Origin: Agromyces subbeticus DSM 16689
GTDB taxonomy: Bacteria; Actinomycetota; Actinomycetes; Actinomycetales; Microbacteriaceae
Assembly: GCF_000421565.1 (NCBI RefSeq)
Contig: NZ_ATXG01000011.1
Span: 1 to 64,000 of the forward strand
Length of the DNA stretch: 64,000 nucleotides
Direction of reading: 5' to 3'
Shown here: positions 16,043-21,213 of the stretch, piece by piece
Layout: every line of letters begins with the position of its first letter
How positions within the stretch are numbered: the stretch's first letter is position 1
Made by a program: the position numbers and the translations under genes
The notes under the pieces: model-generated
Told to the model about the DNA's origin: nothing
The model's input: only the letters and a program-made list of their open reading frames with translations
Databases searched by the model: none

Positions 16043-18058
<2,016 letters not shown>

Positions 18059-18139: not shown

Positions 18140-18856
18140 TCAGAGCGCGGCTGCAGCGCGGCGGGTACGCCGCAGCCCCACCATGTACGGCAGGCCCGGC
18201 CCTACTGCGGCGAACGTCTGCCCGATGCGCTTCGGCCACGAGGGCGCCGGCGGTGTCGCCTGCGAGCCGCCGAGGTCGCCGACGTCGACGAAGTAGGCGC
18301 GCACCGTTCCGAACCCCTCGAGTTCGGGCAGGACCTCCTGAACAGGTGCCCGCATGGAAGCCTCGCCGGCTCGGTACAGCTCTTCGGAGAGCAGCACGTA
18401 CTCGGGGATTCCGACCGGGTTCTTCAGCATGCGGTGCACGAGGATCACGTCGATGCCGACGAGCTTGATGCGGTCGCGGATCGTCTGGGTCGCGACCTCG
18501 CCGACGTGCGCCACGAACTTCAGTTTGAGGTCGGCGGCGCCCTTGCATCCCACGCACGGGCAGAGGTTGGCCGTGACGTACCGGCGCTCGAGATGGAAGG
18601 CGCGGTGCATGGCGACCGCGGCGTCGAGGATCTCGGTGATCGAGGCATCCGTCGTGCCCTCGTCGACCTGCAGCGAGAAGAAGGCCGCGTCGCCCTCGAT
18701 CTCGATCAGGTCGAACCCGGGGGCGGCGTCGATCATGCGCTCGAGCATGCGCCCCGTGTTGACCTCGGCGTGCGCGAGGCTCATGCGGTGCGTGCTCATG
18801 TAGTCGGTGTAGCCACCGATGTCTGCGATGAGCAGCACGGCGCGGCCGGAGTCCAT
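18140..18856 (-). CDS. DUF2652 protein, class III nucleotide-cyclase-like
   Basis: 238 residues. The start LLIADIGGYTDYM resembles the first metal-binding strand of class III adenylate/guanylate cyclases (D12), and EIEGDAAFF the second (D56). An arginine-containing segment, IDVILVHRML, sits where cyclases carry the transition-state N-x3-R motif; the arginine is present but the asparagine is not. A cysteine cluster CPCVGC near residue 99 is an addition. I assign DUF2652; whether it makes a cyclic nucleotide is unproven. It lies 41 bases after an MFS transporter with a cyclic-nucleotide-binding domain, which strengthens the link. GAGG ribosome-binding site. Confidence 0.75.
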   Translation of the reverse strand: MDSGRAVLLIADIGGYTDYMSTHRMSLAHAEVNTGRMLERMIDAAPGFDLIEIEGDAAFFSLQVDEGTTDASITEILDAAVAMHRAFHLERRYVTANLCPCVGCKGAADLKLKFVAHVGEVATQTIRDRIKLVGIDVILVHRMLKNPVGIPEYVLLSEELYRAGEASMRAPVQEVLPELEGFGTVRAYFVDVGDLGGSQATPPAPSWPKRIGQTFAAVGPGLPYMVGLRRTRRAAAAL

Positions 18857-18897
18857 GCCTCACGATCCCACCGATACGGCGTTCTCGACACCCCCCA

Positions 18898-20589
18898 TCA
18901 GGAGGGCGGCGGCGCGTCGTCGAACGGCTCCTTCGGCGAGTAGCGGTCGAGCTGGCCGTCGACGACGACCGCCGCTGCGCTGGTGCTCGCGGTGTAGCCG
19001 AGCACCACGGGAAGGAACCGCTCTGAGCCGAGCGCCCGGAGCGCGAGGGCGCTCCTCGCCACCACCGTGGCCGTTCGGCGCGTGCTGCGCAGCAGCGCGA
19101 TCTCACCGAAGCCCTCACCCGGGCCGAGTGTCGCGACGACGCGACCATCGCCGACCACGTCGGCCTCGCCCATCTCGATGACGTAGAACCGGTCGCCGGG
19201 GTCGCCTTGCCTGAACACGGCGGCACCGGCGGCGACCTCGACGGACTCCATGCCGCGGGCGAGCTGCTCGATCGACGGCAGTGGCAGGGCGCGGAACATG
19301 CGTACTCGCTGGAGCAGGCCGATCTGCTCGTCGAGCACGTCGACCGAGCTGTCCATGCCGCGCAGCCGCCGCAGCGACAGAAGCGCCAGCACCGGGCACA
19401 CGAGACCGATCGCGATCAGCGCCGTCTCGACGCCGAACCATTCGACGAGCACCGACGCGACGACGGCGCCGATGCCGATGAACACGGCGACGAGACTCTC
19501 GAGCACCCCGAAGACGCGGGCGAGCACCTCGTCGGGCGCCATACGGGCGATGAGGGTGAACCCGGCGACGTCGATGAGGGCGTTGCCGACGCCGACGAAC
19601 GCGAGCAGCCCGAGCGCCGGGATCTCGGCGGGCGCGAGGCCGATGAGCGTGAACGGCAGGCCCCAGAGCCCGACCCCGACGGCGAACCACACCCCCAGCC
19701 GGCCGGTGCCGACGAGCAGCGACGCCGCGAGCGAACCGAGCACGGCCCCCACCCCGACGGCGGTCATCAGTGCGCCGACGCCCGGTTCCCCGGTGCCGAG
19801 CAGTTCGATCGCCACCACGACCGAGAGCACGGTGAGCGCGCCCCGCGTGAGTGCCTGCGCCGCCGCGAGCGCGAGGACGAGCGTCAGGTCGTGGTTCTGC
19901 ACGACGGCCCTGATGCCGTCGGCGGCCTCGCGCGGGAGGTTCGGATGCTTCGGCGCCGATGGTCGCGGCGGTGCGTCGTAGCGCAGCCGCAACAGCAGCG
20001 CCGCGGCCCAGAACGACGCCGCCGCGGCCACCGCGAACACGACGTCGACACCGGTGTACTGCAGGAGCACCGCGGCCAGCAGGGGGCCGACGAGGGTCGC
20101 CGCGGAGTCGAGGAGGCCGCGCACGACGTTGGCGCTCGCGAGCTCGTGCCCCGTGCGGCAGAGCGACGGAAGCAGCGCGGAGTGCGCCGGACGGTAGAGG
20201 GTCGCGGCGATCGTCGAGAGCACGGCGAGGGCGTAGATGACCACGACGGGCCCCGACAACGCCGCGACCAGGGCGGCCGCGGCCGTCGCGAGACCGCGCA
20301 CCACCGAGACGAGCACGAGCACCCGCTCGCGGCGTCCTCGGTCGGCGATGGGCGATAGCAGTGGAGCGAGGATCGCCGAGGGCAGCATCCGGAGCAGACC
20401 GACGAGTCCGAGCGCCACCGCACCGCCGTCGCGATAGGCGACGATGCCGAGCGCCACGGTGAACGCCCACTCGGCCGTCCAGGCGCCGAGGAAGCTGAGC
20501 TGGGCGCGGCGCAGGTTGGGATTGCGCCAGTTGCTCGTGAACGCGGCAGCAGCGTCGCGCACCCTGCCGTGGCGCCGAGCTTCGCCCAT
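18898..20589 (-). CDS. MFS transporter fused to a cyclic-nucleotide-binding domain
   Basis: 563 residues. About 20-415 is an MFS permease of about 12 helices with the loop motif DRGRRERVLVL after helix 2, as in the MFS_3/enterobactin-exporter-like group. About 430-535 is a CAP-ED/cNMP-binding domain: FRQGDPGDRFYVIEMGEADV then FGEIALLRSTRRTAT, in which E496 and R505 occupy the ribose- and phosphate-binding positions with the nine-residue spacing seen in PKA-type cassettes. So nucleotide binding is plausible. Substrate unknown. It sits between hpt and ftsH, upstream of the DUF2652 cyclase-like gene, and is not part of the usual block here. Confidence 0.88.
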   Translation of the reverse strand: MGEARRHGRVRDAAAAFTSNWRNPNLRRAQLSFLGAWTAEWAFTVALGIVAYRDGGAVALGLVGLLRMLPSAILAPLLSPIADRGRRERVLVLVSVVRGLATAAAALVAALSGPVVVIYALAVLSTIAATLYRPAHSALLPSLCRTGHELASANVVRGLLDSAATLVGPLLAAVLLQYTGVDVVFAVAAAASFWAAALLLRLRYDAPPRPSAPKHPNLPREAADGIRAVVQNHDLTLVLALAAAQALTRGALTVLSVVVAIELLGTGEPGVGALMTAVGVGAVLGSLAASLLVGTGRLGVWFAVGVGLWGLPFTLIGLAPAEIPALGLLAFVGVGNALIDVAGFTLIARMAPDEVLARVFGVLESLVAVFIGIGAVVASVLVEWFGVETALIAIGLVCPVLALLSLRRLRGMDSSVDVLDEQIGLLQRVRMFRALPLPSIEQLARGMESVEVAAGAAVFRQGDPGDRFYVIEMGEADVVGDGRVVATLGPGEGFGEIALLRSTRRTATVVARSALALRALGSERFLPVVLGYTASTSAAAVVVDGQLDRYSPKEPFDDAPPPS

Positions 20590-20661: not shown

Positions 20662-21213
20662 TCAGGAGTAGACGTGCGGCGCGAGGATCGCGACGTCGCG
20701 GAGGTTGCGGTACTGCTCGGCGTAGTCGAGGCCGTAGCCGACGACGAACTGGTTCGGGATGTCGAAGCCGAGGTACTTGACGGTGACGTCGACCTTCGCG
20801 GCATCGGGCTTGCGCAGCAGCGCGCAGATCTCGACCGACTCCGCGCCGCGGGACTCGAGGTTGCCGAGCAGCCAACTGAGGGTCAGGCCCGAGTCGATGA
20901 TGTCTTCGACGATGAGCACGTGCTTGCCGGTGAGGTCGGTGTCGAGGTCTTTCACGATGCGCACAACGCCCGACGACTGCGTGCCGGCGCCGTAGGATGA
21001 CACGGCCATCCAGTCCATCTTGATATGCCCGGCGAGCTCGCGGGCGAGGTCGGCCATGACCATGACCGCGCCCTTCAGCACGCCGACGAGCAGCACGTCG
21101 CGGCCCTCGTAGTCGGCCTCGATGCGCCGGGCGAGCTCGGCCAGCTTCGCGTGGATCTCGGCTTCGGTGACGAGCACCTCGGTGAGGTCGGCCTCGATCT
21201 CGCGCGCGTACAT
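20662..21213 (-). CDS. hpt: Hypoxanthine phosphoribosyltransferase
   Basis: 183 residues. The PRPP-binding loop HVLIVEDIIDSGLTLSWLL is unmistakable, with GVLKGAVMVMADLAREL before it and VGYGLDYAEQYRNL near the end. It salvages hypoxanthine and guanine to IMP and GMP. GAAGGAG five bases before the ATG. It is next to tilS, the common Gram-positive pairing, 64 bases downstream of it. Confidence 0.96.
   Translation of the reverse strand: MYAREIEADLTEVLVTEAEIHAKLAELARRIEADYEGRDVLLVGVLKGAVMVMADLARELAGHIKMDWMAVSSYGAGTQSSGVVRIVKDLDTDLTGKHVLIVEDIIDSGLTLSWLLGNLESRGAESVEICALLRKPDAAKVDVTVKYLGFDIPNQFVVGYGLDYAEQYRNLRDVAILAPHVYS

Follow-up and report, generated by a model that had tools for sequence, protein, structure and literature searches.

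A DUF2652 cyclase-like protein and a transporter with a cyclic-nucleotide sensor as a candidate second-messenger module in Agromyces

In Agromyces subbeticus DSM 16689, two adjacent genes stand within a row of housekeeping genes: one encodes a DUF2652 protein, the other a transporter of the major facilitator superfamily (MFS) that ends in a cyclic-nucleotide-binding (cNMP) domain. Both lie in the first 64,000 nucleotides of contig NZ_ATXG01000011.1, the whole stretch analysed here and referred to as the window. The question that this locus raises is whether the two proteins act together, one making a nucleotide that opens or closes the other. A first-pass annotation had proposed such a self-contained switch, had read the pair as an insertion and had known of no description of it. 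Taken together, our findings point to a genuine module that recurs in soil bacteria and most likely functions in the way first guessed, its enzymatic step being a prediction. We consider it probable that the two genes constitute a dedicated second-messenger module in which a DUF2652 cyclase, likely forming cyclic GMP (cGMP), gates the MFS transporter. The predicted switch is well supported by adjacency across gene orders, by the fold, by the metal and phosphate residues and by the cNMP cassette, and the reading as an insertion also fits; novelty can be claimed only in part.

Linkage within and beyond the genus

On the minus strand of the window, the hpt-like, MFS-cNMP, DUF2652 and ftsH-like genes follow one another in this order and in the same direction, with 41 bp between the MFS-cNMP and DUF2652 genes, both of which lie where they were first placed. 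We take the flanking genes to be hpt and ftsH from the first-pass annotation and from the look of their sequences rather than from a family search. Pfam assigns the smaller protein of the pair to DUF2652 (PF10851; E 1.3e-33, 115.9 bits against a curated cut-off of 22.1) and finds both MFS_1 (PF07690; E 1.2e-26) and cNMP_binding (PF00027; E 1.9e-16) in the larger. A scan found neither promoters nor terminators between the two genes, a null result of little weight in a GC-rich actinobacterium.

Across 60 Agromyces genomes, the window's included, DUF2652 was found in 26 and an MFS-cNMP orthologue in 29. Three of the 26 hold solely a divergent DUF2652 (G510, G521, G525); the other 23 carry the paired type, and in every one of them MFS-cNMP adjoins it. 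Twenty of these 23 pairs occupy the hpt-ftsH site and three lie elsewhere (L046, L056, L058); at L053 only the ftsH side is visible and the MFS gene is truncated, and at L047 the MFS gene is split. The ftsH-like gene gave a single match in 58 of the 60 genomes. Where the pair is absent from the site, 31 of 32 sites are closed, with just 72-282 bp between the hpt-like gene and ftsH; the 32 comprise 29 from MFS-free genomes and three from genomes with the pair elsewhere, two more MFS-free genomes having no ftsH match. The pair therefore fills an otherwise empty slot, and the housekeeping block is indeed interrupted, as first read; the term insertion fits both the closed sites and the three Agromyces genomes in which the pair sits elsewhere. 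In the MFS tree these three relocated copies cluster with Glaciibacter, Leifsonia and Microterricola (support 86/91), a placement that would be expected from joint movement of the pair. As side observations, 1.7 kb of other sequence lies in the hpt-ftsH gap of G549 (L204), so the slot may accept other inserts, and about 2.5 kb separates DUF2652 from ftsH in G506 (L066).

Beyond Agromyces the paired type is rare: among 119 genomes of the order only three hold a DUF2652 of any kind, two of them above cut-off, and among 396 of the phylum 16 do. A profile scan of named genomes for the paired type returned 54 loci, 52 actinobacterial and two from Bacteroidota. With L129 cut by a contig end, 51 loci could be evaluated for MFS-cNMP in flanks of up to 6 kb, and 48 have it; excluding the 14 loci that overlap the genus survey leaves 34 of 37 with the gene and 3 of 37 without. 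The neighbourhood check that the first-pass annotation had suggested thus shows a pairing that recurs, in 23/23 genus genomes that have the paired type and in 48/51 loci, and is not due to chance. Among 57 non-duplicate pairs (window excluded), MFS precedes DUF2652 in 47, DUF2652 precedes MFS in seven and three are convergent. DUF2652 and MFS identities are correlated over 56 loci (Spearman 0.80), and paired loci occur in Microbacteriaceae, Kribbellaceae, Nocardioidaceae, Geodermatophilaceae, Propionibacteriaceae, Intrasporangiaceae and Thermoleophilia. The wider notion that all DUF2652 genes have cNMP neighbours was refuted: no cNMP gene accompanies DUF2652 at the two Bacteroidota loci or at 17 of the 21 other-type loci found, as judged by profile search of the fetched stretch (the other four were not fetched widely).

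The three evaluable loci that have no MFS-cNMP (L115, L142, L148) carry instead a PIG-L deacetylase fused to a cNMP domain (PF02585 with PF00027, shown for L115 and L118). This PIG-L-cNMP gene is present, beside DUF2652, in 12 of the 52 actinobacterial loci (L115, L118, L123, L141-L148, L150; at 6778-7938 in L118), and in five Geodermatophilaceae loci it sits between MFS and DUF2652; four PIG-L-cNMP loci (L118, L123, L142, L148) also contain a PALP (cysteine-synthase-like) gene. The fusion drew 1,286 protein-database matches, both domains being present in 120 of 120 among the matches listed, and it is uncommon because a phylum sweep (E 1e-40, four candidates scored per genome) matched 1 of 396 genomes. 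A mycothiol link (PIG-L of the MshB/Mca/BshB type; the cysteine-synthase-like neighbour at L118) fell under every curated cut-off and was kept only as a lead.

The DUF2652 protein and its base-reading pair

The DUF2652 protein combines the cyclase-homology fold of class III cyclases with their two metal aspartates and their transition-state arginine; Ile138 stands at the place of the transition-state asparagine (Table 1). Among 61 non-duplicate paired-type proteins, D12, E52, D56, C99, C101, C104, H117, H141 and R142 are present in all, and K131 in 60. A further 16 proteins (one of 17 dropped) represent other types; L053, for which the MFS reading was false and the tree branch long, L152 (wrong DUF2652 frame) and L071 (absent from the alignment) fall outside both sets. 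Both aspartates noticed by the first-pass annotation are invariant in 51 aligned proteins, the arginine that it saw in the right region is R142, four residues past the place of the cyclase Asn, and the missing Asn that it named as the weak point is a genuine, family-wide feature. Its suggested comparison of the predicted fold with cyclases recovered a cyclase fold and so did not refute the idea. Searched directly against PDB sequences, the single protein gave no match; the DUF2652 profile gave six weak ones, headed by an unrelated protein (E 0.038) and followed by soluble adenylyl cyclase (0.13).

DUF2652 was published in 2016 as a class III nucleotide cyclase-like family, with Ile in place of Asn already noted as a family feature and with Rv1900c as an active cyclase that does without the Asn (Ramakrishnan et al. 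2016, PMC4886424). Paired-type DUF2652 proteins additionally have an invariant CPCxxC motif, without counterpart in the ordinary cyclases aligned, that may possibly bind zinc. Elsewhere, a database paper places DUF2652 among families with conjectured cysteine-based pathways, for example electron transport or Fe-S biogenesis (PMC12828279). Separately, two loci (L083 7570-8781, L084 7004-8239) appear from sequence to join a DUF2652 domain to a methyltransferase-like part, and other distant DUF2652 proteins, extended at the C-terminus, are likewise long.

A preference for one nucleotide is suggested by E52 and K131. Guanine presents N1-H and amino hydrogens, for which Glu is an acceptor, and an O6, for which Lys is a donor; with adenine, Lys and Glu take reversed roles, and uracil shows guanine's hydrogen-bond pattern. 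Applied to the DUF2652 protein, this chemistry would have E52/K131 suit a guanine (or uracil) edge better than an adenine one. On this basis cGMP is the most likely product, and cyclic UMP (cUMP) a possible one because uracil offers the same pattern. The canonical pair is Lys/Asp for ATP and Glu/Cys for GTP, and Glu52/Lys131 matches the GTP form by half. At positions 52/131 the 16 other-type proteins have K/E (9), K/D (2), A/T (2), S/S (1), N/E (1) and E/R (1); K52 is thus combined with E or D at 131 in 11 of the 16, against E52 in all 61 of the paired type, and both aspartates are kept in 16/16. Two Bacteroidota proteins are E/K. On a 42-protein tree, in which several long branches make the change counts soft, the K/E-or-K/D label requires three changes, at least two of them forced by well-supported branches, and the E/K label four, one of them merely the N131 of A. 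tardus. Repeated charge reversal of this kind is as expected for a contacting pair that reads the base.

We take the Lys that is replaced in the KDA-to-EGY mutant of the Ma1120 adenylyl cyclase to be the base-reading residue at the place of E52. The titles of the mutant's PDB entries (5d0g, 5d0h) record a Lys-to-Glu change and a GTP complex; that change was engineered in an ordinary cyclase with Gly as partner, whereas the partner in the Agromyces protein is Lys131. Both K,E and E,K are tabulated in PMC4886424, where the E,K subtype is termed the guanylate-cyclase type; reading them as a repeated charge swap goes beyond that paper and is our own.

The transporter, its sensor and other cyclic-nucleotide genes

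The phosphate-binding cassette of the sensor, FGEIALLRSTRRTATV, contains the two residues that the first-pass annotation had singled out, E496 (codon 19102-19104) and R505 (codon 19075-19077), both read directly. Across 36 aligned MFS-cNMP proteins R505 never varies, and both E496 and T506 belong to the 90%-or-more class. The residue after the cassette Arg is Thr, Ser or Asn in the rows read, except in four cyclase-free relatives (Met/Leu); in PycTIR, the Arg and the following Ser contact the phosphate, and the Ser contacts the base too (PMC11224242). Our cassette table, whose rows were picked by a motif containing Glu (79 MFS rows with duplicates; 9/12 PIG-L rows), does not show conservation of Glu for that very reason. 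Fairer evidence is given by the 36-protein alignment and by 33 distant MFS-cNMP rows found by profile, with Glu in 32, Asp in one and Arg in all 33. The C-terminal 151 residues match PKG, PKA, MlotiK1 and CRP-type PDB sequences, the cGMP- and cAMP-dependent kinases first, in a ranking that is biased towards chains holding more than one of these domains and is not decisive for the ligand.

The membrane part has the MFS profile and a 12-helix fold. Its model (predicted local distance difference test score, pLDDT, 85) resembles VMAT, peptide transporters, SotB and MdfA among others, and one helix (387-427) leads from the last membrane segment towards the sensor, a plausible gating route. An H+ antiporter subfamily and EntS are the top NCBIfam matches, both under cut-off; given these likenesses, export is the likely direction of transport. 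Fusions of MFS proteins to a cyclic-nucleotide-binding domain (CNBD) are already known (PMC10710835), and the Agromyces protein is of the same C-terminal type. The passages on these fusions name no ligand source, whereas the Agromyces fusion has a cyclase-like standing neighbour; the function of fused domains is described there as often not known.

Only two proteins of the genome match PF00027 at the search threshold, namely the transporter and a channel that is of MscS type by its sequence. As no further cNMP protein in the genome, for instance a CRP-type regulator, scored at that threshold, the signal most likely would act locally on the transporter. The genome's sole PF00211 cyclase (L086 1-3462; contig C1:666078-669572) is without the metal aspartates (AELIGF, RGGYLAS), retains Asn and Arg, and is followed by an MscS-like channel with a weak cNMP domain. 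An equal loss of metal residues is seen in the L155-L157 cyclases.

Table 1. Positions in the window of the paired genes, their key residues and the flanking genes
Feature	Coordinates	Strand	Remarks
DUF2652 gene	18140..18856	-	238 aa, class III cyclase-like; stop codon included
D12 codon, first metal-binding aspartate	18821..18823	-	Invariant in 51/51 aligned DUF2652; aligned to cyclase DL/DI motif
E52 codon, predicted first base-reading residue (adenylate cyclase Lys place)	18701..18703	-	E in 61/61 paired-type
D56 codon, second metal-binding aspartate	18689..18691	-	Invariant in 51/51 aligned DUF2652 proteins
CPCxxC motif (C99, C101, C104), possible zinc site	18545..18562	-	All three Cys in 61/61 paired-type
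K131 codon, predicted second base-reading residue	18464..18466	-	K in 60/61 paired-type, N in 1
Ile138 codon, at transition-state Asn place	18443..18445	-	hhalign register; I in 60/61, V in 1
R142 codon, transition-state or phosphate Arg	18431..18433	-	R in 61/61 paired-type
MFS transporter with C-terminal cNMP domain	18898..20589	-	563 aa; stop codon included
cNMP-binding domain, residues 450-526	19012..19242	-	Pfam
Phosphate-binding cassette, F494-G-E496 to R505-T506-A507	19069..19110	-	In cNMP domain
hpt-like phosphoribosyltransferase gene	20662..21213	-	Upstream flank of slot
ftsH-like gene	16043..18058	-	Downstream flank of slot

A proposed module and its alternatives

We propose that the DUF2652 protein works as a divergent, soluble nucleotide cyclase of class III, in which D12 and D56 would hold the metals, E52 and K131 would read the base and R142 would serve the phosphates, and in which catalysis would dispense with the usual Asn, as it reportedly does in some other cyclases (PMC4886424). 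The cyclic nucleotide, most likely cGMP, would bind the MFS sensor at E496, R505 and T506, and transport of a putative cargo would be opened or closed through the helix that links the sensor to the membrane part. In this scheme the genes, the fold, the residues and the linkage are observed, and the activity, the nucleotide, the gating, the direction of transport and the cargo are predictions. In other actinobacteria the same messenger would probably also switch the PIG-L deacetylase fused to a like sensor. It is tempting to generalise further, to a cGMP or cUMP module of actinobacteria that has a cyclase family to itself, involves no transcription factor, and gates a transporter and, in some relatives, switches a PIG-L deacetylase too, so that a small molecule would be processed and moved on command; reversal of the Glu/Lys pair would flip the base. 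In this broad form the proposal is tentative.

Several observations weigh against the proposal. The match between the DUF2652 fold and class III cyclases has an hhalign probability of just 61% despite a low P, and the transition-state Asn is replaced by Ile (one Val) in all 61 paired-type proteins, one of which (A. tardus) has both N131 and V138. Linkage does not tell the nucleotide, and the sensor is similar to both cGMP and cAMP kinases. The transporter also occurs alone: in a class sweep (E 1e-60 or better, three candidates scored per genome) MFS-cNMP matched 14 of 394 genomes, and DUF2652 adjoins it in just four of these (G000, G004, G721, G894); at L242 and L243 (53-55% identity) neither DUF2652 nor a cyclase lies within 12-14 kb, and no cyclase was seen at 18 of 23 distant DUF2652-free loci in the fetched stretch, some only 3-4 kb long (L220, L245). 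The lone PIG-L-cNMP gene of the phylum sweep (L240) has no DUF2652 within 16 kb. Within Agromyces, six of the 29 genomes have MFS-cNMP without a neighbouring DUF2652. Four of these six have Met or Leu for T506 and no DUF2652 match anywhere in the genome, and two keep Thr and carry another DUF2652 type elsewhere; E496 and R505 stay. The pattern hints at decay of the sensor after loss of the cyclase and, all six forming one clade, may reflect a single event.

At the other five of the 23 distant loci (L095, L097, L252, L253, L256), the fetched stretch does include an ordinary class III cyclase domain, about 0.35-4.3 kb from MFS-cNMP. With 58 PF00211 matches in 59 genomes of the order, about one per genome, chance would be expected, on a rough estimate, to yield well under one such locus. 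In L095 (1-9251), the sequence reads as a distant MFS-cNMP near a tandem class III cyclase and a cNMP-plus-patatin-like gene. In L253 (4872-17443), two MFS-cNMP genes lie about 10 kb apart, and behind each comes a class III cyclase domain that carries what reads as a long ATPase/TPR-like tail.

How else might the pair be explained? A working cyclase could gate the transporter with cyclic AMP (cAMP) or another product such as cUMP, and the evidence divides: the E/K pair suits uracil also, the sensor matches PKA and CRP-type as well as PKG sequences, and Pycsar offers an established case in which class III-like cyclases make cUMP and CNBD proteins sense it (PMC11224242), whereas E52 is the guanylate-cyclase residue, opposite in charge to adenylate cyclases, and DUF2652 matches no PADLOC model, PycC included. 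On balance we regard a product other than cGMP as unlikely, if credible. It is rather doubtful that DUF2652 is instead a pseudo-cyclase that binds a nucleotide without catalysis and acts by contact or by holding it. The Ile in place of Asn is what such a protein might show, and the metal-less PF00211 homologue beside a cNMP channel indicates that non-catalytic homologues do occur next to cNMP proteins; yet the metal aspartates, the Arg and E52 are kept in 61/61, unlike in the degenerate L086 and L155-L157, and the active Rv1900c also does without the Asn (PMC4886424).

An anti-phage system resembling Pycsar, with the MFS protein as membrane effector, seems improbable. The layout of a cyclase beside a CNBD membrane protein is shared, the distribution is patchy over several loci, and the sensor's top PADLOC matches are PycTIR/TIR effectors plus one PycC-labelled model, although these matches (E 7.8e-11 to 7.7e-7) cover sensor residues only (best 441-529). 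DUF2652, however, matched no PADLOC family at E up to 1, PycC among them, and the effector is of neither PycTM nor PycTIR type but a complete 12-helix transporter, with a deacetylase as the alternative effector and a row of housekeeping genes as the usual site in the genus. Least probable by far is adjacency without function, the genes having been inserted jointly and then inherited. Twenty of the 23 genus copies share one site and hence are not independent, but three gene orders, loci in six families and Thermoleophilia, and a second cNMP fusion as alternative neighbour all speak against it.

The dedicated cyclase-transporter module that we favour is in part anticipated. The DUF2652 of PMC4886424 is the same Pfam family, with the same class III fold prediction, E,K pair and Ile for Asn, and cNMP-domain neighbours are listed there for Rv2561 and its kin in mycobacteria; to that extent the claim that no description was known does not hold. 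The main text of that paper contains none of the words MFS, major facilitator, transporter and zinc, and in the sections consulted we did not find the strict MFS-cNMP and PIG-L-cNMP pairing, the gene orders or the insertion slot described here. In the wider literature, mostly open-access and without preprints or supplements, we found no description of the MFS-DUF2652 pairing or of its PIG-L-cNMP alternative. Pycsar, as presented in PMC11224242, shares the two-gene layout of a class III-type cyclase and a CNBD effector, one form of which is in the membrane, and one of its clades has a Cys3-His zinc site in the cyclase; the zinc-candidate residues of DUF2652 lie elsewhere in the sequence. Unlike in Pycsar, the DUF2652 partner is a transporter or a deacetylase.

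If the proposal is correct, the locus encodes a second-messenger-gated MFS transporter with a dedicated cyclase. The next gene would be the likely source of the ligand at every evaluable locus of this actinobacterial DUF2652 type except three, which have a different cNMP fusion as neighbour. An orphan MFS-cNMP fusion and an uncharacterised cyclase-like family thus become one testable system, and the Glu/Lys charge swap offers a simple, falsifiable rule for the nucleotide of each DUF2652 protein. Such a module would place a secondary transporter directly under the control of a messenger, and it would give DUF2652 a function and cGMP a probable role in actinobacteria.
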